Below are positions 160-25,854 of a DNA stretch of 26,154 bases, piece by piece. Under the pieces are notes generated by a model. The model worked only from the letters and a program-made list of their open reading frames with translations. It had not been told where the DNA came from and ran no database searches. The stretch spans positions 1 to 26,154 of IMG/VR virus record IMGVR_UViG_3300048592_000519; one strand, written 5' to 3'. The position numbers and the translations under genes were made by a program. Origin of the DNA: a virus. Numbering within the stretch: position 1 is the stretch's first letter; each line of letters opens with the position of its first letter.

Positions 160-624
160 TCAGCTACCCACCGCCCACGCCGTCTTGCGTTCCCACACGC
201 ACTCCGCCTCAATCATCGGCCGCCGGTTGGCCGCCAGCGCCGTATCCTGCCCGCCCCTCAGGCGTTTCGGCCGCACGATCATCAGCCGCGCCGTGCAGGT
301 GTAGACCGTCTCCGTCCCGTTGGCCGCGATCTGCACCCCCTTCAGCGTGCCCGACTTGCCCCGCAGCCCCGCCAGAATCCGGTACTGCGCGTTCGTCACA
401 TCAAACCCCTTCGTTGCCCCCCGGCAGGCAAATACCGCGATCGTCTGCCCAAACGTGATGTCGCTGTCGGCCGTCCCGTCCAAATCCCACTTCGTGCCGT
501 TGCTCAGCGTCACAATCCGGCTGATCGTCTGGTCGCCCGTATCCTCGAACTCCATCATCCGCAGCCCCGTCGTGCGAATGCTCATCCCCGCAAACTCCTT
601 CAGGATCAACGCCCGTTCGCTCAT
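160..624 (-). CDS. Distal-tail-like structural protein, 154 aa
   Basis: The frame encodes 154 residues beginning MSERALILKEFAG. Its ATG overlaps the TAA of the tape-measure gene by one base (TAATG), which implies coupled translation. Composition is beta-rich with many short alternating hydrophobic stretches and no membrane segment or signal peptide. A gene directly after the tape measure in siphoviruses is commonly the distal tail protein or a tail-tip adaptor, and the size would suit a small version. I see no diagnostic motif. It is a real gene by position, overlap and coding bias; the function is inferred from order. Confidence 0.7.
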   Translation of the reverse strand: MSERALILKEFAGMSIRTTGLRMMEFEDTGDQTISRIVTLSNGTKWDLDGTADSDITFGQTIAVFACRGATKGFDVTNAQYRILAGLRGKSGTLKGVQIAANGTETVYTCTARLMIVRPKRLRGGQDTALAANRRPMIEAECVWERKTAWAVGS

Positions 625-9563: not shown

Positions 9564-11786
9564 TTAAGCCACGTTGCGCTTGCCGATGCCGCGCGGACCG
9601 TTCACGCCCGCCGCGAACTCGTCACGCACCTTGATCGGCAGCACGTCGTTGGTGAACATCAGCCCGCTCCTCTCCGAGACCACCGAGAACAGCTCCGGCG
9701 CCGGATGCGCCCGGCCGCCCGGATTCTGGCTGTAGCTCATCTGGATCACTGGGTACACCATCGGGTCGACGACGTAGGCCCAATTGTTGTTGTCCGTCCA
9801 GTCCGGCACCACCAGCGGCACCGGCCGCGGGTCCGCAAAGCCGCGGTCCTGCGCTTCCGGCGTGTAGGAGGTCGGCATGCCCTCGCCGTAGCCGAACAGC
9901 TCCAACGCCGTGTCGTACAGCTCGGCCGGGACTAGCACGAACCGCGGGAACACGCCCAGCACCGCGCCGCTCTGCAACTCGGTGTGCTGGAACGCCTCAG
10001 CGCGGGCCGCCCGCCATCCGGCGGCGTCCAGCGCGGCCGTGCCGATGTTGGCATGGTCGGCGTGGAACAGCGCCTTGCTGTCCGTCGCCAGCGTCGGGCC
10101 CACGCCCGCATTGGCCGTGAACAGCGCACTGATGGCCGCGCTACGCGAGCGAACGGCCGCGTTGGCCAGCGCCCGCGGGATCGCCTGCATCTGCTGGATG
10201 TCGCTGTTCTTGATCATCTCGCGGGTGATGCCCACGTACCCGCCGCGCTTCACGAACGCGGCCGTTTCCTTGGCGTCGTCAACCGCGAGTTCGGTGTAGG
10301 TCCCGCCCTCAGCGACGGTCGGCAGGTTGGTAATGCCGCCCATCGTGATCCACTTCATGGTCTGCAAGCTGCCGTCGTTGGGCTCGACGCTGGTGATACG
10401 CTCAAACCAGCGCCAGTGGTCGAGGCGCACCATCTGCTCCACGATCACCTTGTTCAGCGCGTCCACAGCCAGGTTCGGCAGCGTCGCCGTCGTCGCCGAG
10501 GCGAACATCAGCCGGGTCGGGTCGAAGATGCCCCGGAACTCGGTGTCACCCGTCAGGGCAACGTACAGCTGGTCAAACCGGCGCATGTTGGCCGGCGGCG
10601 TCTTGGCCCCGCCCACGCCGAAGAACCAGTTCACATGGTCACTGGCCTCGTCCATGGCATCGCGCACCTGCATGTCACGCGGCGCCTTGCCCCCGATCTG
10701 AACCACGTTGCCCTCCTGCAGGGCCGCCAGTTCGGCGCGGGCCTCAGCCACGGCCGTCTCCACGTCGCCGGGCGTCTCATACGTGCCGCGCTGCAAACGC
10801 GCCTGCACCGCCGAGGGCAGCCCCGACGCCTGAATAATGGCCTTGGCGGCCTGGGCCTGTACGGCCTGCAGCCACTCGTTGGCCTTCGGCTCAACCACCT
10901 GCTCAGCGGCCGCGCCCTTTTCCACTTCCTTCATCTCGCTCATGACTTCACTCTCCGTTTCAATGTCGGCCGTCCCACCCGCGGCCGCTAAGCTGATCTT
11001 TGCCGGGGCGCGGTGCCGCCGGCGATGCTCCAAATAGTGCGCGGCAAACACCCGCGCCTTGGCCGGTTCGATGTCGTAGTCGTAGATACCGGTCAAAAAC
11101 TCGCGCACCCGGCCGGGCAGTTCGCCCGTCTCCAGGTACTCGTGAATCACCCCTTCCAATGCCGGTAGCGACGCCCCGCGAAACACCTCGTCGAGCGTCT
11201 CGTACACATCGGCCGCCAGCCGGCTCGTCGTGTTGCCGAACAGCCCGTCCCGGTTGGCCGCCGGTTCGTCCACCGCGTCCACCGCGTGCGCCGCCTCAAT
11301 CCGCAATGCCGGATACTTTGCCGTCGCCCCCTGCGGCCGGAAGCCCTCGTCCGGCGTCTCCGTCCCGTCGGCCAACGTCCACGCCCCGTAGCCGTCCACC
11401 ACCACCGACAGCCCAAACGCTTCCGGGTCCTCTTCGGCGAGGCTCTCCACATACTCGCGCAGGTCGCCGCTGGGCGACTTGGCCGCCGTCTCGCTCAGAT
11501 GCAGGTCACCGATCACCTTGTCGCCCTGCACCTGAAAGTTGCGCATCCGCCCCAGATACTTGCCCAGCCCGTCCGCGCTCAGGCCGGGGTGGGTGAAACG
11601 GCTCTTCAACCCCGCCGCGGCCGCGTTGCCGAGGTCGGCGAACTGTTGCAGCGATGTCCGGTCCACCATCAGTCCGTGCCCCAGCGCCTCCACCGCCTGC
11701 ATCGCCGAGACGCCGCGCAACACGTGCGCCTCCCGATCCACGCGGCCGACCGGCCCATAGGCGTTAAACCTCATTCGTTCCGTCAT
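9564..11786 (-). CDS. Fused prohead protease-major capsid protein, 740 aa
   Basis: The N-terminal part (about 1-235) has the features of a head-maturation protease: RFTHPG with His66, then an FGLSVVVDG strand with Ser127, about 60 residues apart as in the His/Ser proteases of phage heads. A charged region (about 280-380, EVEKGAAAEQVVEP then Ala/Gln-rich helix) resembles a scaffold or delta domain. Residues about 380-740 match HK97/Mu-like capsid proteins, with a TDTEFRG-type E-loop region, RGGYVGITREMIKNSD, AISALFTANAGVGP and a C-terminal SERSGLMFTNDV. The ATG overlaps the stop of the 72-aa gene (ATGA). A second in-frame start with its own ribosome site lies at codon 282. Processing would release the shell protein and peptide scaffold during head assembly. 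Confidence 0.88.
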   Translation of the reverse strand: MTERMRFNAYGPVGRVDREAHVLRGVSAMQAVEALGHGLMVDRTSLQQFADLGNAAAAGLKSRFTHPGLSADGLGKYLGRMRNFQVQGDKVIGDLHLSETAAKSPSGDLREYVESLAEEDPEAFGLSVVVDGYGAWTLADGTETPDEGFRPQGATAKYPALRIEAAHAVDAVDEPAANRDGLFGNTTSRLAADVYETLDEVFRGASLPALEGVIHEYLETGELPGRVREFLTGIYDYDIEPAKARVFAAHYLEHRRRHRAPAKISLAAAGGTADIETESEVMSEMKEVEKGAAAEQVVEPKANEWLQAVQAQAAKAIIQASGLPSAVQARLQRGTYETPGDVETAVAEARAELAALQEGNVVQIGGKAPRDMQVRDAMDEASDHVNWFFGVGGAKTPPANMRRFDQLYVALTGDTEFRGIFDPTRLMFASATTATLPNLAVDALNKVIVEQMVRLDHWRWFERITSVEPNDGSLQTMKWITMGGITNLPTVAEGGTYTELAVDDAKETAAFVKRGGYVGITREMIKNSDIQQMQAIPRALANAAVRSRSAAISALFTANAGVGPTLATDSKALFHADHANIGTAALDAAGWRAARAEAFQHTELQSGAVLGVFPRFVLVPAELYDTALELFGYGEGMPTSYTPEAQDRGFADPRPVPLVVPDWTDNNNWAYVVDPMVYPVIQMSYSQNPGGRAHPAPELFSVVSERSGLMFTNDVLPIKVRDEFAAGVNGPRGIGKRNVA
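10941..10956 (-). promoter_or_regulatory. Internal in-frame ribosome site and ATG within protease-capsid gene
   Basis: On the minus strand GGAGAG (10956-10951) stands 7 bases before an ATG (10943-10941) that is in frame with the fusion gene, at codon 282. Initiation here would give a 459-residue protein holding the scaffold-like stretch and the whole capsid domain but no protease. The spacing and match are better than those of several real starts in this operon. Confidence 0.5.
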
Positions 11787-12001
11787 TCCCCATCCTCCAG
11801 TGCAATCCGGCGCGTTGCCGGTCTGCGTCCCGCCCGGTTGATGTTCAATTGCGTGGCCGGAATGCTGATGAACACCAGCTCCACCTCGCCCGGCCCGTCA
11901 TCAACCCATTCAAACGTCGCCCCCGGAATCGGCCGCCCGTTGACCGTCACCACCTCGCGGCCGTCCTGATACGACACCGAGACGCTGTTACCGCTGGCCA
12001 T
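11783..12001 (-). CDS. Small protein between portal and capsid fusion, 72 aa
   Basis: I set the start at the ATG at 12001-11999 (MASGNSVSVSYQDGREV), which overlaps the end of the portal gene by 14 bases and has GAGGG 5 bases upstream; a longer frame is only a portal-gene shadow. The stop overlaps the ATG of the protease-capsid gene (ATGA). The product is beta-rich (EVVTVNGRPIPGATFEWVDDG) with a basic C-terminal stretch (NRAGRRPATRRIALEDGE). I do not recognise a family. Its place between portal and protease suggests a minor head-assembly protein. Confidence 0.65.
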   Translation of the reverse strand: MASGNSVSVSYQDGREVVTVNGRPIPGATFEWVDDGPGEVELVFISIPATQLNINRAGRRPATRRIALEDGE

Positions 12002-13391
12002 CGTCGCCCTCTTGCGCCGCCGGGTCCGGCGCGTCGGCCGGTTCCTCAGGCGGCATGAGCTGCGGCGGCACTTCCGGTTCTGGCGCGGCCTCGAGTTCGT
12101 CCATGATGGCCTGAATCTGACCCTCATCCATGCCTTCGCCGATGAACTGGAAGAACAGCCGTAGCGATTCCTCGCGCAGTGTCGGTGAGTCGGTCCCCAG
12201 CGCCGTCGCCAGACTGTTGAAGGCGTCGGCCAGCTCCCGCCCGGCCGTGGCGAGGTTCGTGTTGTCGTCCCGGCTGATGTCGGGCAGCTCCACCACAATG
12301 TCATCACGCGACGGTAGCCGCCGCGTCGTCGTCGAGCCGTAGGCCCGGCTGTACGCCACGTGGCACAGGTCAATCACCATGTCGGCCACTTCCTGCTGCC
12401 GCCGCTTCATGTGCCGCACGGCCGCCCGCTCCATCGCCGTCGCCGTGGCCAGGTTGACATCCATGCTGTCGGCCAGCCAGTGCGGCGGCTGCCCCGCGCC
12501 CACGGCCACCATCATGCGCACCGCCTGCAGGTCGTTGGCCGCGTCCGCCCCGCCGAGGTTTGGCGTCTTCATGTCCCACTCTTCGTCCGCGTCGTGAACG
12601 ATGATCGCCCCCGGGGAGGGCGTGTTGGAGCTGTACTTCTTATGTGTCGCCGCCACGGCCGCCTTGGGCACTTTCACGAACCAGTAGAACACCCGTGCCG
12701 CCCAGTTCAGCTGCACCCGGTCCTCCAGCATCCGCGAGTAGCGCAACAGCCACGGGATGATCGGCGCCAGGTCCCCGTCGCCCCACAGCGCCCCTACCGG
12801 CCGGTTGATGGCGTAGTGGCACATCACCGCGTCGGCCGTCGCCGCGTCCGGGTGCTGCGGCGAAAGCCACACCCGCGCCGGCTCCCCCGGCCCCTGCTTC
12901 TCGTGGTACTCCAGCTCCATCTCCCAATCGTTGTCGGCCGTGACGATCTTCAAGATGTGGCTTTTGGGGATGGCCCGCACGTAGCTCATGCCGTCGGCCG
13001 AATTGCGGAACAGCGCCACGAACAGATCCCCCGCCCGGCTCCATTCGTCCACGAGGGAAGGCAGCCGCAAATCCATGCGGTTCTGCCGGTGTGTCCAGAA
13101 CTGGTCGATGAACCGCCCCATCTGCCCCGGCGCCTGCGGTTGCAGCCCGTCGCCCAGCACATGGTCGGTCGTTGTGTCGATGATGCGCCGCGCCTGCGGG
13201 TGCTTGCGCCACGCCTCCAGCGCGTCGGCATACAGCGCCTCCATCTCGGCCCAGTCGCGGTCGTTGGCCCGCGTCCCTGTGCCGTAGGTCTCCCAGCCGT
13301 CCGAGGAACTCGTCACCGGCGCGGCCGCAATCTCCGCTAATGCGGTTGTCTCAAAGCCCAGCCAGTGTAAGAACCGTTCCCATCTCGTCAT
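11988..13391 (-). CDS. Phage portal protein, 467 aa
   Basis: The 467-residue product starts MTRWERFLHWLGFETT and has the run of features typical of lambda/SPP1-type portals: a helical N-terminus (AEMEALYADALEAWRKHPQ), RRIIDTTTDHVLGDGL, the wing with SYVRAIPKSHILKIV, a clip-like HPDAATADAVMCHYAIN, and a C-terminal stem with AAVRHMKRRQQEVADMVIDL. The acidic tail (EEGMDEGQI to EPEVPP) is common. The portal forms the dodecameric DNA entry ring at the head vertex. Length is in the usual 400-550 range. No Shine-Dalgarno is visible upstream; a U-tract hairpin ends right at the start codon. Confidence 0.88.
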   Translation of the reverse strand: MTRWERFLHWLGFETTALAEIAAAPVTSSSDGWETYGTGTRANDRDWAEMEALYADALEAWRKHPQARRIIDTTTDHVLGDGLQPQAPGQMGRFIDQFWTHRQNRMDLRLPSLVDEWSRAGDLFVALFRNSADGMSYVRAIPKSHILKIVTADNDWEMELEYHEKQGPGEPARVWLSPQHPDAATADAVMCHYAINRPVGALWGDGDLAPIIPWLLRYSRMLEDRVQLNWAARVFYWFVKVPKAAVAATHKKYSSNTPSPGAIIVHDADEEWDMKTPNLGGADAANDLQAVRMMVAVGAGQPPHWLADSMDVNLATATAMERAAVRHMKRRQQEVADMVIDLCHVAYSRAYGSTTTRRLPSRDDIVVELPDISRDDNTNLATAGRELADAFNSLATALGTDSPTLREESLRLFFQFIGEGMDEGQIQAIMDELEAAPEPEVPPQLMPPEEPADAPDPAAQEGDDGQR

Positions 13392-13543: not shown

Positions 13544-13731
13544 CCCCATGCGTCTCGCGCCCGGCCGTTTGCTTCCGGGTCCGTCTCGATTACCACCGGC
13601 AGCTCCGGCCGGTACTGCGTCAGGTCGATGGTATACATCACACCCCGCAGCTGCACCTGTATCACCAGCCGCTCCGGGTCGAACTTGAACAGCAAACGGC
13701 CGTCGGGTCCGCGAACATCAGTGTAGGCCAT
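13540..13731 (-). CDS. Small protein between large terminase and portal, 63 aa
   Basis: The 63-residue frame begins MAYTDVRGPDGRLLFKFDP and overlaps the large-terminase stop by one base (TAATG), so it is translated in series with packaging genes. It is a short beta-rich protein (RLVIQVQLRGVMYTIDLT) with no Cys and no membrane segment. I do not recognise a family. Its end overlaps the -35 of the candidate portal promoter, so this gene closes the terminase transcription unit. Confidence 0.6.
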   Translation of the reverse strand: MAYTDVRGPDGRLLFKFDPERLVIQVQLRGVMYTIDLTQYRPELPVVIETDPEANGRARDAWG

Positions 13732-15059
13732 TAGGCGACGTGCCTCAGGTGGTCGAGCGGGTCATAGCCCGGCACCCAGTCGCTTTCCGGTTCCCGATCG
13801 TCGTTGAGGTAGGAGCCGACATAGCGCAGGGCGTCGAGCCGGTGGTACTGCGACTTGTCCGCAATGGCCTCCAGCGGTTCGCCCGCCTCGTCGGTCACGC
13901 GGGAGTAGTTGCCCAGCTCGTCGAGCGTCTCAGAACAACTGTCAAAAACTATCAACCGGCCGTTGGCGAACAGCGAGTACACCCGGTTGATGCCCACCTC
14001 GACATCACCGACCAGCGGCTTGCGGACCCGCAGTCCGGCCGTGGTGAATTCGTCCCGCCATTGCTGTTCGCCCGGCGCCCCGCCGAACGCCTCGAACTCG
14101 CCCGGTTCGCCTTCCAGCAGCAGCGCCGCGTGTTCGGCCGCCGTCCTGTCGCCCGCATGGTACTCGCGGTACAGGAACAGCTGGCCATCGTCCGGCCGCT
14201 GGGCGATGAACACGGCCGCCGTGTTGACGCCGCCGAAGTCGAGCCCGAGGTAGCGGGGCCAGTCCGAGGGGATGGGGAACGGCCGGCAGGTCATGGTGTC
14301 GGCGTCGAAGGCGGAGTAGATGAGGCCCGCCGGCCGCGTGAACAGCGCCCGGTTGAACATGTCGAACCGCCAGGCCGGCAGCTCTCGCCGCGCCCGGTCG
14401 TACTCCTCGCGCGGGAACGCCGGGTTCATGATCGACTCGAACCGCACAAGCGATACGTCGTCGCCCGGCGCGTCCCAAAAGCGCTGTTTGAGCCAGCCCC
14501 AATAATAAGGCGTGGTCGTGATCAGCACCCGGCCGCGGTGGATGGCCAACCGCCGCATGATGGCCTCGAACGATTCCGCCTTGAACGCCGGCTGACCCGC
14601 CTCGTCGAGCCACGCCGCCCGCGCGGTGGCGCTCTCGAGGCTGTCGGGGTCCGTGGCGTAGCCGAACCAGACCGTGGTCTTGTAGTCGCGGCCGCTGGCC
14701 CCCCATAACCGCTGCTGGCCCGTCTCGTCCACCTCGAACCGCCGCGATGGCGAGCCAACATAACGGCCGAGCGCGAGGTAGTCCTCGAACAGCCGCCGGA
14801 ACTCCGGCAGCGCCTTCTTGTCGAGCAAGCTGAACGTGGGCGTGACCACGAGGTAATCGCCCGGCCCGGCCGTCTGCATCTCCCGGTGGAGCCATGCGGG
14901 CCCGAATGTGGTCTTGCCGCCCTGTGTGCCCGCCAACACGACCACATACCGGCCGTCGGCCTGCCATGCCTGCCACTGGCCGGGGTGCATGTGGTAGCGG
15001 AGTTTACCCGCGGCCGTCAGTTCGTAGAAGTCATTCGGGGGTGTCGGCGTCGAGGTCAT
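13731..15059 (-). CDS. Terminase large subunit, 442 aa
   Basis: This is the packaging motor. Counting from the ATG at 15059 the Walker A motif is GTQGGKTT (44-51), the Walker B-like WLDEAG (150-155) carries Asp152-Glu153, and the coupling motif ITTTPYYWGWL lies near 180-190. The nuclease domain opens with YLGLDFGG (Asp274) and later acidic residues follow. The ATPase drives DNA into the prohead and the nuclease cuts concatemers. An upstream TTG (15080) would add seven residues; neither start has a clear ribosome site, and the overlap of 29 bases with the upstream gene suggests coupling. Length is typical of the family. Confidence 0.93.
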   Translation of the reverse strand: MTSTPTPPNDFYELTAAGKLRYHMHPGQWQAWQADGRYVVVLAGTQGGKTTFGPAWLHREMQTAGPGDYLVVTPTFSLLDKKALPEFRRLFEDYLALGRYVGSPSRRFEVDETGQQRLWGASGRDYKTTVWFGYATDPDSLESATARAAWLDEAGQPAFKAESFEAIMRRLAIHRGRVLITTTPYYWGWLKQRFWDAPGDDVSLVRFESIMNPAFPREEYDRARRELPAWRFDMFNRALFTRPAGLIYSAFDADTMTCRPFPIPSDWPRYLGLDFGGVNTAAVFIAQRPDDGQLFLYREYHAGDRTAAEHAALLLEGEPGEFEAFGGAPGEQQWRDEFTTAGLRVRKPLVGDVEVGINRVYSLFANGRLIVFDSCSETLDELGNYSRVTDEAGEPLEAIADKSQYHRLDALRYVGSYLNDDREPESDWVPGYDPLDHLRHVA

Positions 15060-15402
15060 GGGGTGGGGGTACGATCTCAATGCCCAGCACGCCGACGCGG
15101 CCGCCGGCCGACGTTACGTCTACCTGCGACTTCTCGCCGTCGATGTGCTTGTAAAGCCACTTTACGATGTTGGCGTATTCCTCCAGGTCTTTCACCTCGA
15201 GCGCGCGGCCGTCGAGCATCGTCACCCTTCCCGTGGTGACGATTTCAGCCATCATCTGGGCGATCAGCCGCTTACGCGCCACGCGCGCGCCGTCCGGCGT
15301 CGGAACCGTCTTCCCCAGTTCCGTCTCCAAGATGGCCGTTAGCGCTCTATTCTTCGGCGGTCGCCCCGCTGGGTTGCCGGATTGGCCTTTCTTAAACGGC
15401 AT
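15031..15402 (-). CDS. DUF5681-type, small-terminase-like protein, 123 aa
   Basis: The start is the ATG at 15402 with GGGGAG five bases upstream; an upstream extension lacks coding support. The N-terminus MPFKKGQSGNPAGRPPKNRA is the signature of DUF5681 proteins, a basic Gly/Pro-rich segment followed by a helical region (IAQMMAEIVTTGRVTM). Proteins of this type are regularly encoded just before large terminases and are thought to act as small terminase subunits that bind the packaging site. It overlaps the large terminase by 29 bases. Family recognition is strong; the terminase role is by context. Confidence 0.8.
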   Translation of the reverse strand: MPFKKGQSGNPAGRPPKNRALTAILETELGKTVPTPDGARVARKRLIAQMMAEIVTTGRVTMLDGRALEVKDLEEYANIVKWLYKHIDGEKSQVDVTSAGGRVGVLGIEIVPPPHDLDADTPE

Positions 15403-15424
15403 TGCTCCCCACTGTATAGCAGAC

Positions 15425-15439
15425 GTTTCAAAATGAAAC
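15425..15439. promoter_or_regulatory. Palindrome in terminase leader, candidate operator
   Basis: GTTTCA and TGAAAC are perfect arms around AAA. The palindrome lies about 15 bases downstream of the candidate -10 of the terminase promoter and 23 bases before the start codon, where a bound protein would block transcription. Confidence 0.4.
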
Positions 15440-15492: not shown

Positions 15493-16437
15493 CTACTTCA
15501 GCCACCGATCCACAGGCGAGGCGCGCCGGTGGGCCTGCTCGACATCGGCCTGCGCGAGGTGGAGGTAGTAGCGCACCATGGTCAGCGACGAATGGCCCAA
15601 CAGCGACTGAAGGGTGAACACGTCGCCGCCGTTGCGCAGGTACTGAATGGCGAACGTGTAGCGGAAACGATGCGGCTTGCAATCGGGCACGCCGGCGGCC
15701 TGGCCGAGATGCACCAGCCGCTTGCGCAACCATGAGACGCTCATGGGCCCGTCAGTCGAGGCGAATAGCGGCGCCATCGGATCGGCACCGTCCGGCCGTT
15801 CCTGCAGGTAGCGCCACACCACCGGCCGCGTCACGTCCCCCAGCCAAACAGTACGCGGTTTGCCCCCCTTGCCATCATGGATGCTGAGCTGCCCAGTGGA
15901 CAGATGAACGTCGCCCACAGTCAAGGCGCACAACTCGCCCGCCCTCATGCCGGTATCAAGCAACGTCAGGACGATGGCGTGATCGCGCAGGCCGTCATGG
16001 TAGCGCTTGCCCGACCGCGGCCGTTTGGCGCGAGTAGGACGAACGGCGGCCAGCAACGCCCGCACCTCGTCGACGGTGAACGGCGTCTGTTCGGCGTTGG
16101 TCGTCTTCGGCCGCGGCACCTTGCCCGCCACCATGTCGGGCGTGTCCAGCGTCTCGCCCACCCACCGGGCGAAGGACTTCAGCGCCGTCCACGCATTGTA
16201 GACCGACTGGCTGGAGAGTGGCGCCGTGTCGCCGTTGGAGCGCACCGGCCGATAGTCATGCCGCAAGTAGGCCAGAAACGCCGTCACCTGCTCGTGCCCG
16301 AGGTCTTCCAGTGGTGGATCTTCAGCCCACGTCGCAAACCGCTCCAACTCCCACCGGTAGAGCGCAATCGTCCTTGGCCGCAATCCCTCCGCTGTCTTAA
16401 AGAGCAAGTAGCCGTCAATCGCCTGTCGCAGTCGCAT
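15493..16437 (-). CDS. int: Tyrosine integrase, 314 aa
   Basis: This is a site-specific recombinase of the phage integrase family. A SAM-like core-binding domain (about 1-100, with LYRWELERFATWAE) precedes the catalytic domain, where the expected residues are all visible: Arg in TGMRAGELCAL, Lys in HDGKGGKPR, His-x-x-Arg in PHRFRYTFA, His in LLGHSSL, and the nucleophile Tyr in MVRYYLHL. The start MRLRQAIDG has GGGAG about 9 bases upstream; an ATG nine bases earlier abuts that site. It lies 93 bases from the tRNA-Sec fragment, so it should catalyse insertion into and excision from the host selC gene. Confidence 0.92.
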   Translation of the reverse strand: MRLRQAIDGYLLFKTAEGLRPRTIALYRWELERFATWAEDPPLEDLGHEQVTAFLAYLRHDYRPVRSNGDTAPLSSQSVYNAWTALKSFARWVGETLDTPDMVAGKVPRPKTTNAEQTPFTVDEVRALLAAVRPTRAKRPRSGKRYHDGLRDHAIVLTLLDTGMRAGELCALTVGDVHLSTGQLSIHDGKGGKPRTVWLGDVTRPVVWRYLQERPDGADPMAPLFASTDGPMSVSWLRKRLVHLGQAAGVPDCKPHRFRYTFAIQYLRNGGDVFTLQSLLGHSSLTMVRYYLHLAQADVEQAHRRASPVDRWLK

Positions 16438-16455
16438 GAGCACCATCTCCCGACC

Positions 16456-16492
16456 GGCCGCTAGTCCGGCACTGTGCCATAAACTAGCGGCC
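16456..16492. repeat. Nested inverted repeat between integrase and att site
   Basis: The arms GGCCGCTAGT (16456-16465) and ACTAGCGGCC (16483-16492) are perfect and enclose a second small palindrome, GGCAC/GTGCC around one base. The element lies in the integrase leader 38 bases from the att core. It may bind integrase or an excisionase, or fold in the integrase mRNA. Confidence 0.55.
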
Positions 16493-16530
16493 ACCTGGTC
16501 ACCTACGGGCGCTCAATAAAAAGGCTGCGT

Positions 16531-16597
16531 CTTCAAAATTGGCGGCCGGTCGCGCATAGCGAGCGGCGGTGGGTTCGACTCCCATCCACTCCCGCCA
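16531..16597 (+). other. attP core: 3' part of a tRNA-Sec gene
   Basis: The 67 bases match a selenocysteine tRNA from the anticodon loop to CCA. The loop is CTTCAAA with anticodon TCA (16533-16535). A long variable arm follows, with 9-nt arms (GCCGGTCGC and GCGAGCGGC, one mismatch) around GCATA. The T arm is GTGGG-TTCGACT-CCCAT, then an eight-base acceptor strand CCACTCCC, G and CCA. Eight acceptor bases, the long arm and TCA together define tRNA-Sec. The 5' half (acceptor GGGAGTGG, D arm, 5' anticodon strand) is absent, so it is not a functional tRNA but an integration site that restores selC on insertion. Confidence 0.85.
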
Positions 16598-16682
16598 TCC
16601 GCTCAAAACGCCAGACTGACGGCCGGTCGCTCCTGCGCCCGTAGGCCAACCGGCCACCAGTCTTCCCCGCATCGTTCTTTGA

Positions 16683-17070
16683 CCGTTTTCGGCCATTTCG
16701 ACCACACCTGATCCAAACCTCGGCCAATAGGTTTGCACCCCACTTTGGCCTCTATTTCGCCCGTTTTTAGGGACAGCACCCCACAAACGGCCGTCAGGCT
16801 GGCACAAAGTAGGGACAGCCCCCCATTTCGGCCGTTTTCGACATCGCCATGATCCAAACCTGCCAAACTGTTTCCTATATAAGTGTTTTTTATATATATC
16901 TCTATAAGAGAAAGGTTTGGTAGGTTTGGATCATTGGTCCGCACCCCCCATATATGGGGGTAAAACGGCTCAAAACAGGCATTTTGGCCCACATATACCG
17001 ACCAAACCTTTTCGCCTGAGGTTTGGATCGTCCAAACCTAGGTTTGGACGATGGTTGCAGATGCAACCAT
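16683..17070. repeat. Iteron-like repeat field with AT-rich tract, non-coding
   Basis: This gap holds no convincing gene. It carries repeated AGGTTTGGA/TCCAAACCT elements in both orientations: at 16709-16720, 16850-16861, 16913-16920, 16922-16933, 17002-17009, 17019-17030, 17031-17039 and 17040-17048. The last three make back-to-back palindromes. Other features are a duplicated TAGGGACAGC (16768 and 16810), a tract of mostly A/T at 16869-16909, the palindrome CCCCCATATATGGGGG (16945-16960) and an inverted pair ATGGTTGCA/TGCAACCAT (17051-17070). Iterons beside an unwinding tract suggest a replication origin; arm-type integrase sites are an alternative given attP 90 bases away. Confidence 0.6.
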
Positions 17071-17909: not shown

Positions 17910-18269
17910 CTACTCTTTCGATTCCTTTCGCCTCAGCCTGAAAAGCGCATAGTCAAGTATTTCCTGTCGTTCATCCGGGCTCATCTGCCTCATGATTGAC
18001 AGGACCTGCTGAAACGTCAGGTTCTCTTCTTGTGTGGGCTCGGGCGGCAACAGGCCGGCGGCACGAAAAATCATCTCTGCCGGTAAATTCAATCCCTTAG
18101 CGATTGCATTAGCAGCATCAGGGCCGGCTCGTCTGTCGCCGTTCAAAATGCGCGTCACAGTGGCGTTCGGTAGCCCGGCCGCATTCGCCAGGTCAATCGG
18201 CCGCCATCCACGCAAAACCAACTGGTCTTCCAACCACACTGAAAAATCGATCTCTTCCACCAGCCACAT
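17910..18269 (-). CDS. XRE-family repressor, 119 aa
   Basis: An HTH_XRE domain covers about residues 20-75: RPIDLANAAGLPNATVTRILNGDRRAGPDAANAIAKGLNL, where the second helix-turn-third helix (LPNATVTRIL) is the recognition region. The C-terminal part (FQQVLSIMRQMSPDERQEILDYALFRL) is helical and probably dimerises. No LexA-like catalytic Ser/Lys peptidase is present, so induction cannot be by RecA-assisted self-cleavage in the usual manner. The gene has a strong GGAGGT ribosome site and diverges from the RHH gene, the standard lysogeny-lysis switch layout. It heads a three-gene leftward operon. Confidence 0.85.
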   Translation of the reverse strand: MWLVEEIDFSVWLEDQLVLRGWRPIDLANAAGLPNATVTRILNGDRRAGPDAANAIAKGLNLPAEMIFRAAGLLPPEPTQEENLTFQQVLSIMRQMSPDERQEILDYALFRLRRKESKE

Positions 18270-19485: not shown

Positions 19486-20268
19486 ATGACCGAGAAAACA
19501 ACTGTCCGATCCCTAATCGTCGATAACCGCGAACCGCCGTGGATGCACCGCATGGAACTCGACGGCGCCCGCGTCATCTCTACCCAGCTGCAGTGCGGCG
19601 ATGTCTGGCTGACCGGCGACGACGGCGCGCTGCTTATCGTCGAGCGCAAGACCGCCTCTGACCTCGTGGCTTCTATCGCCGACGGCCGCCTGTTCGACCA
19701 GGCCGCCGCCATGGTCCAGCTCTCGCCGTGGTCCTACGTCGCCATTCAAGGCACGTTGGCTGTCGGTCCGCAGGGCACCACGCTGGTCGACGGCCAGCCA
19801 ACCCAGTGGCAATGGTCCAGCGTGCAGGGCGCCCTGCAGACCGTGCAGGAGCTGGGCGTGGCCATCATCTACCTGTCCGACCAGCCCATCGGCTTCGTTC
19901 AGTTCCTGGCCCGCCTCATCACCCGCGACCGCGGCAACGTGCGCGCCGGCGGCGTTCGCAAGCCCGAGCTGCTGGCCCCCGGCATGCTGGCCCTCATGGC
20001 CCTGCCCGGCATCGGCGCCGACCGCGCCAAGGCGCTGCTCGAGACCCTCGCCGGCGCCGCCTGGGCGCTGGAATACCTGACTGACACCAACTGGCAATCT
20101 GACCACGTGACCGGCATCGGCGACGGCGTGCGCGCCAAAGTGCGCGAGGCCCTCAGCCTGCCCGAGGGTGCCAAGCTGGCCGTGCTGGTGGATGGTCCGC
20201 CCGCCACCGGCACAACCGAACCCAAACCCGTCTACACGATGGAAGACGCCAACCGCGAGCTGTTCTAA
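19486..20268 (+). CDS. ERCC4/XPF-family nuclease with helix-hairpin-helix, 260 aa
   Basis: The product has the ERCC4 nuclease signature: VDNREPP (12-18), GDV (38-40) and V-ERKTASD (53-59, Glu53-Arg54-Lys55 and Asp59), the GDx(n)ERKx3D metal-dependent motif of XPF/Mus81 nucleases that cut branched or flapped DNA. A helix-hairpin-helix near 167-190 (ALMALPGIGADRAKALL) should bind DNA. The ATG follows TAGGAG. It sits before a RecT-like gene, so it may supply the processing step of phage recombination or resolve replication intermediates. A second HhH-like stretch is faint (HVTGIGDGVRAKVREAL). Confidence 0.85.
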   Translation: MTEKTTVRSLIVDNREPPWMHRMELDGARVISTQLQCGDVWLTGDDGALLIVERKTASDLVASIADGRLFDQAAAMVQLSPWSYVAIQGTLAVGPQGTTLVDGQPTQWQWSSVQGALQTVQELGVAIIYLSDQPIGFVQFLARLITRDRGNVRAGGVRKPELLAPGMLALMALPGIGADRAKALLETLAGAAWALEYLTDTNWQSDHVTGIGDGVRAKVREALSLPEGAKLAVLVDGPPATGTTEPKPVYTMEDANRELF

Positions 20269-20288
20269 CCGCACTTTGGAGGAACCCC

Positions 20289-21035
20289 ATGACCAACGCA
20301 ATCGCAATCCGCAACGCCATGACCCCCACTTTGTGGGAGATGATCGACCGCATGGCCCCCGTCATGCACCAATCCCGTCTGTTTGGCGTGTCCAGCCCGG
20401 CCGCCGCCGCCGCCATCATGGTCAAGGGCCACGAACTGGGGCTCTCTCTGGCGGCCTCATTCGACCTGATCCACGTCATCGATGGCAAGTCCGGCCTGTC
20501 GCCCCGCGGCGCCCTGGCCATCCTGCATGCCTCGCCCGACATCGCCAACATCGCCATCAGTCGAATCACCGACGATAAAGGCGCTTATCTTGGCCACGAG
20601 TGCACCATCCGCCGCCGCAACGGCTTCGAGTACACCGCCCGCTTCACCATGGACGACGCCAACCGCGCCGGTCTGGTCAAGGCCAACAGTGGCTGGACCA
20701 AATACCCCGAAAACATGTGCCTCTGGCGCGCCGTCGGCTTTGCCGCCGACGTGGCCGCGCCCGACATCATCGGCGGCATGAAGACGGCCGACCAGTACGG
20801 CGCGGCCATCAGCGACCAAGGCGATGTCATCCCCGGCGAGTGGGGCGAACTGACCGACACGGCCGCCCTCGATGCCGGGCCCGACGAATCCGCCCAAGCC
20901 GCGATGCTGGCCCAAAGCCTGATCGCCGAATACGGTGCCGAGGCCGTACTGGCCGCCAACGGCGGGCAAATCCCGGCCACGCTGGAAGAGATCGACGCCG
21001 TGCGCTACCGGCTCATCGCCGACGAGGAGGAGTGA
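20289..21035 (+). CDS. RecT-like single-strand annealing protein, 248 aa
   Basis: The N-terminal half holds the pattern of the phage RecT-related group: SPAAAAAIMVKGHELGLSL followed by DLIHVIDGKSGLSPRGALAIL. The middle (ENMCLWRAVGFAADV then DIIGGMKTADQYG) is another typical block. The acidic, Ala-rich C-terminus ends EEE. Such proteins coat ssDNA and anneal complementary strands in phage recombination and DNA replication. A strong GGAGG precedes the ATG. It follows a nuclease, the usual pairing, although here the nuclease is ERCC4-type and not a RecE/lambda-Exo-type exonuclease. Confidence 0.7.
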   Translation: MTNAIAIRNAMTPTLWEMIDRMAPVMHQSRLFGVSSPAAAAAIMVKGHELGLSLAASFDLIHVIDGKSGLSPRGALAILHASPDIANIAISRITDDKGAYLGHECTIRRRNGFEYTARFTMDDANRAGLVKANSGWTKYPENMCLWRAVGFAADVAAPDIIGGMKTADQYGAAISDQGDVIPGEWGELTDTAALDAGPDESAQAAMLAQSLIAEYGAEAVLAANGGQIPATLEEIDAVRYRLIADEEE

Positions 21036-21517
21036 TGTCAGAGGTATTCTTTCCTGTCGGCGATTCCATCGTCACCGTCAGCGCCGAAGATGAATCCCTG
21101 TGGTGCAACGCCTGGTTCATCAACGGCCGCGGCTACGTGGTAGGGCAGGGCGGCAGCCTCTACCCCTTCCAGCGCCTGCACCGCGTCGTGATGGAGCGCA
21201 TGCTGGGCCGTTCGCTGCGCCGTCATGAGCTGGTCGACCACATCAACGGCGACAAGCTCGACAACCGCCGCGAGAACCTGCGCCTGGCCACCAACGCCGA
21301 GAACCAGTTCAACCGCGGCCTACCGGCGCACAACACCACTGGCTACAAAGGCGTTTACCGCAACCCCAACGGCCGTCGCCAGTGGACCGCCGCCATCACC
21401 ATTAACCGCAAGAAGCGCCATCTCGGCAGCTTTCACACCGCCGAAGACGCCGCCCGCGCCTACGACGCCGCCGCGCAGGAGCTGGCCGGCGTCTTCGCCC
21501 GAGGGAACTTCCAATGA
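21035..21517 (+). CDS. HNH endonuclease with AP2 DNA-binding domain, 160 aa
   Basis: The start ATG 21035 overlaps the RecT-like stop by one base (TGATG) and has GAGGAGGAG upstream. The HNH motif is clear: LHRVVMERML (His49), then VDHINGDKLDNRRENLR (70s, with His69, Asn71, Asn77). An AP2-like module follows at about 100-158 (GYKGVYRNPNGRRQWTA, then RKKRHLGSFHTAEDAARAYD). This pair is typical of homing endonucleases that cleave and spread between phages. It is inserted between recombination genes without disturbing their reading frames, since the following gene overlaps its stop (ATGA). Confidence 0.88.
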   Translation: MSEVFFPVGDSIVTVSAEDESLWCNAWFINGRGYVVGQGGSLYPFQRLHRVVMERMLGRSLRRHELVDHINGDKLDNRRENLRLATNAENQFNRGLPAHNTTGYKGVYRNPNGRRQWTAAITINRKKRHLGSFHTAEDAARAYDAAAQELAGVFARGNFQ

Positions 21518-22341
21518 CCAGCGCCACCATCCGCGAACTGACGCCGGGCACGGTGTACATCTACACCCCTTACAACTCCGCGTTTCTTGCCGCCTTCAAG
21601 GCCGTCATTCCCGGCGCCGACCGCCGTTGGGACCCCGACGCCCGCGTGTGGCAAGTGGCCGCCAACCACGTCCCGGCGCTGGTCGACCTGTGCCGGCGCC
21701 ACGGCATGTCGGTCGACGCGCCCGCACTGACAACCGCGGCCGCCGCCCCCACGCCCACGATTCAGGTCCTGCGCGTCAGCTACATCGGCGCGCCCAAGGA
21801 GCGCGAGGACGGCAGTTTCAGCGCCTACGGCAACACCGACGGCGAGTGGAAGCTCGTCTTCCCACAGGCCGTGCTTCAGGCGTGGTTCAACGACGGCACC
21901 GCGTCCCCGGCCGCGGCCGTGACGTTCTACGGCCTGCTGGCCGTCAAACGCACCGCCACCGAGGCCGATATCAAGGCCGCCTATCGCAAGCTGGCCAAGC
22001 GCTGGCACCCCGATGTCAACCGCGATCCCGACGCCACCACGATGTTCCAGCAACTCGGCCGCGCCTATGAGGTCCTCAGCGACCCCCAACAGCGCCGCCG
22101 CTACGACGCCGGGCTCCAGCTCGAGGCGTCAGTCACCGGCCGCCAAACGCGCACCTTGACCACCGACTACTGGCGGCCGCCGCTCCGTTGCGGCTGGCTT
22201 TCCATGTCCGGCTTCTGGCGGGTGGGGCGGTTCCATGTGCAAGAGATTCTCGGCTGGCAGGACATCACCGACGCCACCGGGCGCACGCTGGTCACCGCGT
22301 GGCCGATGGGCGCCGACACCTTCGAGGAGATTTGGGTATGA
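21514..22341 (+). CDS. J-domain protein with HARP-like N-terminal module, 275 aa
   Basis: Residues about 138-199 are a complete J domain: FYGLLAVKRTATEADIKAAYRKL, the invariant HPD (165-167), and YEVLSDPQQRRRYD. J domains recruit Hsp70 (DnaK) and stimulate its ATPase. The N-terminal 14-64 stretch (IYTPYNSAFLAAFKAVIPGA, RRWDPDARVWQVAA) resembles the HARP module of SMARCAL1-type annealing helicases and the N-terminus of T4 UvsW-like proteins, which binds forked DNA. The C-terminus is aromatic-rich, with no Zn fingers or Gly/Phe region as in DnaJ. The ATG overlaps the HNH stop (ATGA). A link between chaperone and DNA handling is suggested. Confidence 0.75.
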   Translation: MTSATIRELTPGTVYIYTPYNSAFLAAFKAVIPGADRRWDPDARVWQVAANHVPALVDLCRRHGMSVDAPALTTAAAAPTPTIQVLRVSYIGAPKEREDGSFSAYGNTDGEWKLVFPQAVLQAWFNDGTASPAAAVTFYGLLAVKRTATEADIKAAYRKLAKRWHPDVNRDPDATTMFQQLGRAYEVLSDPQQRRRYDAGLQLEASVTGRQTRTLTTDYWRPPLRCGWLSMSGFWRVGRFHVQEILGWQDITDATGRTLVTAWPMGADTFEEIWV

Positions 22342-22895
22342 ACACCACCATTGTCCCCGGCAGCATGGCCGACATCGCCCAGCGCGAGAACATCAGCCTG
22401 GCCGAATCTTTCCTAACCTGTGACGTGCTGGTCCTCATCGACCAGTCCGGCAGCATGGCCGCCCATGATGCGCCCGGCGGCCTGTCCCGGTTCGACGCCG
22501 CGCAGAACGAACTCAGCCGCCTTCAGCGCGAGAATCCCGGCCGCGTTGCCGTGGTCGAATTCAGCAACACGGTCCGCTTCTGTCCCGGCGGCGTTCCCAG
22601 CCGTGAGGGCGCTATGACCGACATGGCCGCGGCCCTTCGCTTCGCCAAGGTCGTTGACGGCGCCAGTCAGATCGTGCTCATCAGCGACGGCCTGCCCGAC
22701 AGCCAGAACGACGCGCTGGCCGTCGCCCGCACCTACACCTCACCGATCCACACCATCTACATCGGCTCGGAACGCGACACCGACGGCGGCCGCGCGTTCC
22801 TTCAGCGACTGGCGGCCGCCTGCGGTGGCCGGTCCTTCCAAAGCGACGCGCCCGGCCTGTTGGGCGCCCGCGTTGAACAACTCTTACTAGCGTAG
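22338..22895 (+). CDS. Von Willebrand factor A domain protein, 185 aa
   Basis: The protein is almost wholly a VWA domain: the MIDAS starts with DQSGSM (Asp35-x-Ser37-x-Ser39), Thr94 (EGAMTDMAAAL) is the third ligand, and SDGLPD (Asp117) the fourth, so metal binding is intact. Strands LVLID, VAVVEF, IVLISDG and HTIYIGSE alternate with helices as expected. VWA proteins often bridge partners to AAA+ or MoxR-type ATPases; no MoxR gene is present, but a P-loop protein follows. It overlaps the J-protein stop (ATGA), has GAGGAGA as ribosome site, and is cytoplasmic by lack of a signal. Confidence 0.85.
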   Translation: MNTTIVPGSMADIAQRENISLAESFLTCDVLVLIDQSGSMAAHDAPGGLSRFDAAQNELSRLQRENPGRVAVVEFSNTVRFCPGGVPSREGAMTDMAAALRFAKVVDGASQIVLISDGLPDSQNDALAVARTYTSPIHTIYIGSERDTDGGRAFLQRLAAACGGRSFQSDAPGLLGARVEQLLLA

Positions 22896-22927
22896 TTACC
22901 TGTACCCGTGCCAAGGGGAGCAGAACA

Positions 22928-24031
22928 ATGGCCTCATCATCGGCGTATCTCATGGCCCTGCACGGCATGGGGTATCAGTTTCGATACAACGAACTAACAG
23001 ACCGGGTTGAAGTGAACGGAACACCAATCAGCGACGTTATTTCGGCCGAAATCCGCACCAAAATGCGCGACGCCGGCCACAAAAGCATGACCTCCGTTGA
23101 GGACGCGTACACCGCCCACGCCTGGCAGCAATGCTACAACCCGGTCCGCGACTACCTGACGGGGCTGGTCTGGGACGGCCAGCCCTACATCGCCAAAATT
23201 GGCGACTACATCACCGACGAGCACGCCATCTTCGCCCAGTTCCTGCGCCGGTGGATGATCGGCGCCGTCGCCAAGGTCTTTCGGCCCGCGCGAAACTTCA
23301 TGCTGGTCCTCGACGGTCCGCAGGAGATCGGCAAATCCTACTTCGCCCGGTGGCTGTGCCCCAACATCCTTGACGATTACTTCATCGAGGGCGGGATCAA
23401 TCCCGACGACAAAGACACGTGGATCCGCTTGTCCAGCAAGTGGATATGGGAACTGAGCGAACTCGGCGCCACCACGCGCCGCGCCGACCGCGAGGCCCTC
23501 AAGGACTTCATCAGCCGGCAGGAGGTCGTCATCCGGCGGCCGTACGGCCGGCACGACATCGTTAAGCCCGCGCTCTCTTCCCTCATCGGCACGATCAACG
23601 AAGAAGGGCCCGGATTCCTCAACGACCCCACCGGCTCGAGCCGGTTCGGCGTCGTCACCGTCACCGGCATCGATTACGCCTACACCACCGAACTGGACAT
23701 CGACCAGCTCTGGGCCGAGGCGATGGTGGCCTACCAAGACGGCGAAAGCTGGCTGCTGACCGCCGCCGAACGCGCCACGCGCAACGCCATCAACGAAGAG
23801 TACGAGGTCGACACCCCGCTCGAGGCCCTGCTCCGCAAGCACTACAACATCGACCCCGCCGGCACCAGCTGGATCAGCGGCATCGACATCATTCAGGAGC
23901 TGGAGTTCTACGGTCTCAAGGACAACCAGCGCGCTTCGCTCATGGAGCTGGCCCGCGTGATGAAACGCGCCGGGATCGAACGCCGCCGCGTCAGCCGCGT
24001 CTGGAGCTACCGAGGAGTGACCAAACGATGA
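22928..24031 (+). CDS. VapE/VirE-family P-loop protein, 367 aa
   Basis: The product matches virulence-associated E (VirE) ATPases: QCYNPVRDYLTGLVWDG near residues 68-84, a P-loop GPQEIGKS (130-137), a KWIWELSELG (171-180) Walker B-like strand and a FISRQEVVIRRPYGRHD segment with basic residues. These superfamily members act as replicative helicases or primase partners in phages and satellites. A ribosome site AAGGGGAG lies before the ATG. The next gene is a Prim-Pol, with overlapping ATGA, the usual pairing of VapE-type helicase and primase. Confidence 0.85.
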   Translation: MASSSAYLMALHGMGYQFRYNELTDRVEVNGTPISDVISAEIRTKMRDAGHKSMTSVEDAYTAHAWQQCYNPVRDYLTGLVWDGQPYIAKIGDYITDEHAIFAQFLRRWMIGAVAKVFRPARNFMLVLDGPQEIGKSYFARWLCPNILDDYFIEGGINPDDKDTWIRLSSKWIWELSELGATTRRADREALKDFISRQEVVIRRPYGRHDIVKPALSSLIGTINEEGPGFLNDPTGSSRFGVVTVTGIDYAYTTELDIDQLWAEAMVAYQDGESWLLTAAERATRNAINEEYEVDTPLEALLRKHYNIDPAGTSWISGIDIIQELEFYGLKDNQRASLMELARVMKRAGIERRRVSRVWSYRGVTKR

Positions 24032-24864
24032 ACACCGTCCAAACCGCCGCCACCACATGGCTCGACAGCGGGATCGCTGTCATCCCCATCGCCTACCGCG
24101 ACAAACGGCCGCGCGTCCCCTCATGGCGCGAATTCCAGGACCGCCTACCCACGGCCAACGAAGTGCGCCGCTGGTTCGCGTCCCGCTTGACCAACCTCGC
24201 CATCATCACCGGGTGGCGCGGCCTGGTCGTGTTGGACTTCGACCAGCGGCCGCTCTACGACCTCTGGCGGGCGTGGGCCACCGCCACCGCCCCGGCCGTC
24301 ACCAACTCCTACACCGTCCGCACCTCACGAGGCGTACACGTGTACTACTACATCGCCGAACCCGTCCAGACCATGCGGGCCGGGACGATCGACATCAAGG
24401 CCGCCGGCGGCTACGTCCTGGCCCCGCCGTCGATCCACCCCAGCGGCGCCGCCTATGAAGTCATCACCCCGGCCGCCATCATGCGGGTGGACCGCCTCGC
24501 CGACCTGCTGCCCCCGGCGCTGTTGGAGCAACCCCCCGCGCCCGTCCGCCCGCGCCGCGTCGAGGAGCTGCCCGCATCCCCGTGGCACTCCGCCATCGCC
24601 CCCGCCCGCCTGACTGACCGCACCATCAGCGAGATAGCCGACATGCACAACCTGCTCGACCTGTTCCCCGGCGCCCAACGCCGTGGCCAACGCTACTGGA
24701 CCTGCTGCCCGCTGCACAACGACCACAACGCCAGCCTCAGCATCGACGCCGACGGCCGCCGCGCGCGCTGCTGGGCCGGCTGCCTCTGGGGGGATTACAT
24801 CGACTGGTACGCCGCGCTCAACGATTTGACCCTCAGCGCGGCCGTGGCCGAACTTAGTTGTTAA
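24028..24864 (+). CDS. Primase-polymerase with C-terminal CHC2-type zinc finger, 278 aa
   Basis: A bifunctional primase-polymerase domain spans about 1-160: the catalytic LVVLDFD (Asp70, Asp72), SRGVHVYY (His104) and DIKAAGGYVLAPPS (Asp122) motifs are all there. The C-terminal 222-262 is a zinc finger of primase type: YWTCCPLHNDH, then ARCWAGCLWGDYIDW, giving Cys227, His230, Cys248 and Cys252. In DnaG this finger is at the N-terminus; here it trails. It should lay down primers for the VapE-linked helicase. The ATG overlaps the VapE stop, with GAGGAG upstream. Confidence 0.88.
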   Translation: MNTVQTAATTWLDSGIAVIPIAYRDKRPRVPSWREFQDRLPTANEVRRWFASRLTNLAIITGWRGLVVLDFDQRPLYDLWRAWATATAPAVTNSYTVRTSRGVHVYYYIAEPVQTMRAGTIDIKAAGGYVLAPPSIHPSGAAYEVITPAAIMRVDRLADLLPPALLEQPPAPVRPRRVEELPASPWHSAIAPARLTDRTISEIADMHNLLDLFPGAQRRGQRYWTCCPLHNDHNASLSIDADGRRARCWAGCLWGDYIDWYAALNDLTLSAAVAELSC

Positions 24865-24874
24865 GGAGACACCG

Positions 24875-25057
24875 ATGAACGCACTTGACCGCCGCCGCCG
24901 CCAAATGGCCCTGACCCGCATCATCTTGTTTTTGATTCTGGCAATCGCCGTTGTCGGCCTGGGACTGGACACGCTCGACACCCGCATGCAGGCCGCCATC
25001 GCCCTGCTGCTGGGCCTGCCCCTCATCGCCGCTGTGTGGCTGAAATGGACCTCATGA
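24875..25057 (+). CDS. Small two-helix membrane protein, 60 aa
   Basis: The 60-residue frame begins MNALDRRRRQMALTRI behind AAGGAGA and has two predicted hydrophobic helices (IILFLILAIAVVGLGL and AAIALLLGLPLIAAVWL) around a short turn (DTLDTRMQ). A basic N-terminus suggests both termini inside. It has no signal for export and no cysteines. It lies between primase and methyltransferase in a cytoplasmic DNA operon. Membrane peptides here could act in lysis control, replication anchoring or exclusion; none is proven. Confidence 0.65.
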   Translation: MNALDRRRRQMALTRIILFLILAIAVVGLGLDTLDTRMQAAIALLLGLPLIAAVWLKWTS

Positions 25058-25854
25058 CCACGCCCACCGCCCGCATCATCACCGGCGACTGCCTGGACAT
25101 CATCCCGACGTTGGATGACGGCAGCATCGACCTGGTTGTCACCTCGCCGCCCTACCCCGGCCAGTACGGCAACGAGATGAACTCGCCCGCGTGGCTTTAT
25201 TGGACAAGTCGATGGCTACAGCTCCTTGAGCGCAAACTCACGCTCACCGGCGTTATCGCCCTCAACGTGGCTTTCAAACGCACCGATCGTGGCTGGTACG
25301 ATAGCCTTGTCTTCAACCTCGGCCATCCGGGATGGACCCGCTACAACATTCTCGACATCTACATCTACGGCAAATCCAACCCGCCGCCCAACGGCGCGCT
25401 CACCTACTGCGACCCGCCCGGCTGGGAATACGTGTTCATCCTGACCAATGCCAGCCGGCCGGAGGATGTCACGTTCAACCCCGTGCGGCGGCCGTACTCG
25501 GCCAACTCCCTGCGCGCCAACGGCAACCTGTACAGTTCCCGCACGGCCACCACCGAAGCCCACCCCGACGGCGCGCGCCAGACCACGCTCATGCGCTTGT
25601 CCAGCAGCGCCGACCAAAACCGGCCGCGGGCCAAGGGGATCTCGTTCCCGCGCACGTTGCCCGAACGGTTTATCCGGCAGTACACCAACCCCGGCGACAC
25701 CGTGCTCGATCCCTTTTGCGGCGTCGGCACCACTGTCCGCGTGGCCCATGAACTCGGCCGCCGGGCTATCGGCATCGAGATCGACCCCGACGAGGCCGAC
25801 ACTGCCCGGGCGTGGCTGGCCGAACCGACACAACCCGTGTTATTCAGCATCTAG
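25054..25854 (+). CDS. DNA methyltransferase, beta class (N4-C or N6-A), 266 aa
   Basis: I start at the ATG 25054 that overlaps the stop of the membrane protein (ATGA); earlier GTG/ATG codons add at most six residues. Motif IV is TSPPYP (30-35) and motif I DPFCGVGTT (219-227), in the order IV to I that marks the beta class acting on exocyclic amino groups (m4C or m6A). The SPPY catalytic motif is intact, and no target-recognition domain beyond the middle is plain. No restriction endonuclease is next to it, so it is an orphan enzyme likely to protect phage DNA or change its signalling. The specificity cannot be read. Confidence 0.88.
   Translation: MTTPTARIITGDCLDIIPTLDDGSIDLVVTSPPYPGQYGNEMNSPAWLYWTSRWLQLLERKLTLTGVIALNVAFKRTDRGWYDSLVFNLGHPGWTRYNILDIYIYGKSNPPPNGALTYCDPPGWEYVFILTNASRPEDVTFNPVRRPYSANSLRANGNLYSSRTATTEAHPDGARQTTLMRLSSSADQNRPRAKGISFPRTLPERFIRQYTNPGDTVLDPFCGVGTTVRVAHELGRRAIGIEIDPDEADTARAWLAEPTQPVLFSI

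Follow-up and report, generated by a model that had tools for sequence, protein, structure and literature searches.

A 68-bp copy of a tRNA-Sec gene 3' half as the probable attP core of a tailed-phage-like virus of Anaerolineae

The window, by which we mean the whole stretch of DNA that was analysed, comprises 26,154 nucleotides of the virus record IMGVR_UViG_3300048592_000519 from IMG/VR. The features found at the locus are collected in Table 1. Terminase, portal, protease-capsid and tail genes lie to the left of a short block that copies the 3' half of a selenocysteine tRNA gene (selC). An earlier note made from the letters alone (the original prediction in the following) had placed a terminase block on one side of this copy and a repressor-replication block on the other, and the gene content by Pfam and PHROG matches agrees with this. 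The head protease and the capsid protein are apparently fused in one protein of 740 amino acids.

Table 1. Coordinates of the features in the window, with the basis of each assignment
Feature	Position	Strand	Basis
Tape-measure-like protein	624..3431	-	Size and position; PHROG matches weak, to unknown function only
Protease-capsid fusion	9564..11786	-	PF25209, PHROG head maturation protease
Portal protein	11988..13391	-	PHROG portal, 3e-26
Large terminase	13731..15080	-	PHROG terminase large subunit, 1e-27; 44-61% identical in 12 Anaerolineae genomes
Small terminase-like protein (DUF5681)	15031..15435	-	PF18932; a 44-48% identical protein precedes TerL in the cousin prophages L066 and L079
Tyrosine integrase	15493..16494	-	PF00589 (E=1e-30), PF13495; true start likely ATG 16446 or 16437
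Left putative accessory core half-site copy (CGACCGGCCGCTAGT, 13/15)	16451..16465	+	Motif match
Probable attP core (tRNA-Sec gene 3' half, anticodon loop to acceptor end)	16529..16596	+	selC matches with consistent boundaries
Anticodon loop CTTCAAA (TCA), probable 7-bp overlap for strand exchange	16531..16537	+	Predicted exchange point; identity to hosts and the G145 att copy (GTCTTC) start 2 bases earlier, and attP-like tRNA halves of relatives start at their anticodon loop
Right putative accessory core half-site copy (CGACCGGCCGTCAGT, 13/15)	16615..16629	-	Motif match
Second right putative half-site copy (CAACCGGCCACCAGT, 12/15)	16647..16661	+	Motif match
HTH repressor	17910..18269	-	PF01381; PHROG transcriptional repressor
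Early/replication block (ERCC4 nuclease, RecT-like, HNH, DnaJ-domain, VWA, VapE-like helicase, Prim-Pol)	19486..24864	+	
DNA methyltransferase	25036..25854	+	PF01555

The original prediction described a 67-bp copy of the selC 3' half at 16531-16597. A copy is present there, but the homologous block covers 68 bp from 16529 (GTCTTCAAA...) to 16596 (...CCCGCC); its left edge lies two bases earlier, and position 16597, the last A of 'CCA', is common to some hosts only, as most of those examined carry GCCT. The block consists of GT, the anticodon loop CTTCAAA with anticodon TCA, the 3' anticodon strand ATTGG, a variable arm of 9 bp with one G.G mismatch, the T-arm, an acceptor strand of 8 nt (CCACTCCC) and GCC, and identity to hosts thus starts 2 bases upstream of the anticodon loop. 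The 5' half of the tRNA-Sec is absent from the window. For this reason ARAGORN reported no tRNA in the whole window, and the Rfam tRNA-Sec model scored 24.1 bits, below its gathering score of 47.

When 5' halves from related hosts were joined in silico to the 3' half of the window, a complete tRNA-Sec was obtained, and the block keeps every pairing required for this rebuilding. The joined tRNA, having the anticodon TCA, an 8-bp acceptor and a long variable arm, was recognised as tRNA-Sec, which confirms the isotype originally assigned.

A gapped pattern of the core matched three Chloroflexota assemblies only when bacterial genomes were searched, each with a full tRNA-Sec. Among the Anaerolineae genomes sampled, 268 of 396 gave tRNA-Sec-like matches to the core; the alignment started at 16529 in nearly all of the matches listed and mostly ended at 16594-16596. 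The best genome (G098) carries a selC identical at 65/69 positions, followed by 64/69 for L005 and L014 and 63/69 for L004 and L015. With 65/69 identity and a boundary exactly at the anticodon loop, a chance origin of the block is excluded. Between L005 and the window, both partners of one variable-arm pair differ (TCGC/GCGA versus TTGC/GCAA), and such a paired change is what a real tRNA would show.

The search for the core in bacterial genomes, which had been proposed as a check, therefore returned full tRNA-Sec genes with a similar 3' half, but no exact match: no selC identical to the core was found in the 396 Anaerolineae genomes or in 56 genomes of the order of G098, and the exact core pattern had no match in viral contigs. 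Neither attL nor attR of this phage was found in viral contigs, bacterial genomes, the 396 Anaerolineae or the 56 genomes of that order, and one terminase cousin only was present among the latter. SelA was found in all six of the closest genomes (one has a fragment only, where its contig ends), and these Anaerolineae hosts therefore probably use selenocysteine. That the host must encode tRNA-Sec is thereby supported indirectly, by the 268 genomes with matches and by SelA, while the exact host was not found among them. The attachment site links an otherwise orphan virus contig to selenocysteine-using Anaerolineae hosts.

The integrase carries PF00589 together with a SAM-like domain. Its predicted catalytic set R-H-R-H-Y is intact, as R184, H275, R278, H301 and Y310 are invariant in an alignment of 8 sequences. 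A start near residue 17-20 is favoured when the protein is aligned with its relatives; counted from the point where these align, the sequence would be too short to hold an additional N-terminal domain for arm binding. The distance of 93 bases between integrase and tRNA copy, as originally given, holds for a start at ATG 16437, and becomes 36 bases if the upstream GTG 16494 is used.

Integrase relatives among GenBank phages were at most about 31% identical among the matches listed, and hence no annotated phage is close. Scans of viral contigs with the integrase and the terminase gave one 4.3-kb terminase fragment only (L002). VapE relatives in viral contigs were distant only, with up to 37% identity, and none of the viral contigs from the VapE search carried at least three window genes. 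No other contig was seen with the replication and head genes of this phage together.

Many integrase relatives were found in the class Anaerolineae, and 60 loci with 32-48% identity were read. An intact tRNA lies beside the integrase at 44 of the 60, parallel to it and just upstream at 43 and antiparallel at one. The targets at the 43 parallel loci are tRNAs for Met, Pro, Val, Gly, Thr, Asn, Arg, Gln and Ser. At two further loci (L037 and L040) only a tRNA-Met 3' half is present, starting at the anticodon loop, an arrangement like that of the window apart from orientation; on the L040 contig, ParA and replication-type (plasmid-like) genes follow beyond the tRNA-Met half. In G344, a relative lies by an intact tRNA-Pro whose stretch from anticodon loop to 3' end recurs as an exact 48-bp copy 15 kb away, giving an attL/attR pair. 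In the cousin prophage L066, a tRNA-Val is followed by integrase, TerS (44%) and TerL (47%), and the order integrase-TerS-TerL is the same as in the window. By sequence relationship and by the anticodon-loop sub-site, the window fits into this tRNA-targeting integrase family. Locus L067 (G312:C137) contains more than 30 tRNA genes of most isotypes at 9810-12930; an integrase relative beside tRNA-Arg lies about 1.6 kb and a terminase relative about 35 kb from this array, which is possibly phage-borne.

At 24 tRNA-Sec host loci no integrase relative lay beside selC, nor did any other member of this integrase family turn up at selC. Second selC-like copies occur in five genomes, one of them belonging to a genuine prophage with a non-homologous integrase (G145) and the others being duplicates or fragments. 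In G145 (L234, L229) an integrase unrelated to that of the window adjoins an intact tRNA-Sec; a second contig carries an exact 66-bp copy of part of this tRNA-Sec, which starts with GTCTTC and has a host-type gene on one side and a RecT-like gene on the other. Judged by its sequence and position, this repeat is the attL/attR of a non-homologous prophage and starts at the same point of selC as the window block. It is direct evidence that the same selC segment serves as att core in Anaerolineae. The RecT-like gene of this prophage lies near attR. Thus selC, best known as an attachment site from enterobacterial islands, has this role in Chloroflexota too.

Copies of a core half-site flank the block. 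The 15-mer adjoining the anticodon loop (CGACCGGCCGCCAAT in reverse complement) was used as query, and the copies at 16451 and 16615, one per side, are the sole non-core matches of at least 13/15 in the 26 kb; none of 1000 shuffles of either flank reached the 13/15 pattern. A similar mimicry is seen in the 43 relatives whose tRNA is parallel: the gap between tRNA and integrase matches the two segments on either side of the anticodon loop of their own tRNA better than shuffled sequence does (3' side p=1.5e-6, 5' side p=1e-3; kinship among the loci makes both p-values too small). No such excess was seen for D-arm, T-arm and acceptor segments in the gap of these 43 relatives, and the contrast between anticodon-adjacent and other tRNA segments is independent of locus kinship. 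Furthermore, the core segments of the relatives match their own flank better than the flanks of loci with other tRNAs.

The half-site copies may be extra integrase-binding sites that replace arm sites, and since they occur to the left and to the right of the core, they speak for a single attP made up of the two flanks. As a tentative suggestion, on which we would rather bet against than for, the integrase family may use flanking copies of core half-sites instead of arm-type sites; such copies would change with the targeted tRNA, flank and core being re-tuned together on a tRNA switch, here even with reversed orientation. Having many tRNA targets, the family is a good set for studying target switching and arm-site replacement.

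Other repeats are found in the intergenic region further right. The whole window has nine CCAAACCT octamers, where 0.5 would be expected, and eight of them fall within 335 bp (16713-17047) in both orientations; they surround an AT-rich stretch at 16880-16920, with a palindrome ATCGTCCAAACCT/AGGTTTGGACGAT at 17027-17052. The cluster probably represents operators or origin iterons. TAGGGACAGCACCCCA at 16768 is repeated at 16810 (94%; 16768-16825) in the same intergenic region.

The tRNA-Sec half is antiparallel to the integrase, whereas the tRNA is parallel in 43 of the 44 relatives with an intact tRNA, and the window therefore lacks the orientation typical of the family. This orientation and the flanking half-site copies are features beyond the original prediction. 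The one relative with an intact antiparallel tRNA (L193, G095:C242; tRNA-Met) is maybe a second reversed layout.

The original prediction further took the DNA for a circular or virion genome. The contig does contain an unintegrated junction, with phage genes on both sides; however, the IMG/VR record is linear and has no terminal repeats, so that circle, concatemer and virion DNA are indistinguishable, and the window is probably incomplete.

Taken together, the 68-bp block is very probably the attP core of a temperate virus that resembles tailed phages and has its host among the Anaerolineae (Chloroflexota); at this core the integrase would recombine the phage with selC. A phage-borne tRNA 3' end with an exact gene boundary, an adjoining integrase and restoration of the tRNA in silico are all found here and point to an attP. 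The original reading as attP in tRNA-Sec is upheld by isotype, boundaries, the adjoining integrase, phage genes on both sides, the att sites of relatives and the half-site copies in both flanks. The tyrosine integrase is expected to recombine the block with the host selC at the anticodon loop, the presumed exchange point. In attL, next to the repressor side, the host 5' half and the phage 3' half would together give an intact tRNA-Sec; attR, next to the integrase, would hold the displaced 3' half of selC. Insertion into the selenocysteine tRNA gene would in this way leave the gene unbroken. The predicted integrated form accordingly has an intact selC followed by the repressor side, with the integrase at the displaced 3' half.

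The same arrangement could arise in integrated DNA, if two elements were in tandem in one selC (the phage to the left and another element to the right) or if an attR lay beside another mobile element. In favour of this, islands inserted in tandem at a single tRNA gene have been described (PMC4383910), and islands, too, contain VapE/Prim-Pol modules; L183 has the closest VapE (46-47%), next to a different recombinase. Since the window is cut at its right end, a further integrase could lie beyond it, but no second one was seen in the 9.5 kb to the right of the core. Head, repressor and replication genes from the two halves add up to what one temperate phage would carry, the GC contents of the halves are alike (0.657 and 0.642), and the same half-site motif flanks the core on both sides, both flanks appearing adapted to one integrase. 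We consider this explanation improbable.

Smaller still is the probability we assign to the tRNA-Sec half being a relic or passenger without a role in integration, the true attP lying elsewhere. Its orientation relative to the integrase, unlike that of nearly all relatives, would fit such a reading. Yet the half sits where the relatives carry their tRNA target, with exact gene boundaries that are not expected in relics and with all pairing for tRNA rebuilding kept. It is exactly this core that recurs in the flanking repeats, and the 500 bp upstream of the integrase contain no parallel T-loop motif.

Interpreted as an attP core, the block adds a clear new case to a well-known class of phage sites. 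The Anaerolineae relatives (e.g. L034, L037, L040, L066 and L051) share with it integrases of about 40-49% identity, the anticodon-loop sub-site and half-site mimics in the flank, but have non-Sec targets and a parallel tRNA, whereas the window has tRNA-Sec in antiparallel orientation. As a target of phages and islands, selC is known from PhiE067 (PMC7266877) and from the Pf-tRNA-Sec prophages (PMC7549136). The Burkholderia phage PhiE067 is likewise temperate, with an attP that duplicates the tRNA-Sec gene at its 3' end and an adjoining integrase; it differs in being a myovirus of Proteobacteria with a 19-bp attP at the selC 3' end (PMC7266877), while the core in the window, with its Chloroflexota host, spans 68 bp and begins at the anticodon loop. 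The integrases of Pf filamentous phages fall into types with Gly, Met and Sec targets, and the Pf-tRNA-Sec group resembles the window in having a XerC-type tyrosine integrase and a tRNA-Sec attB, but these phages are filamentous and their 27-bp core runs from T-loop to CCA (PMC7549136). Anticodon-centred sites are used by 2083 of 3919 islands, about half of the tRNA islands in Islander (PMC4383910), and the correspondence of the anticodon stem-loop to a core-overlap-core layout is established (PMC8371274). In Islander islands with an anticodon-centred attP a 3' tRNA fragment from the anticodon loop is displaced by the island in the same manner; those islands are integrated, whereas the window contains an unintegrated junction (PMC4383910).
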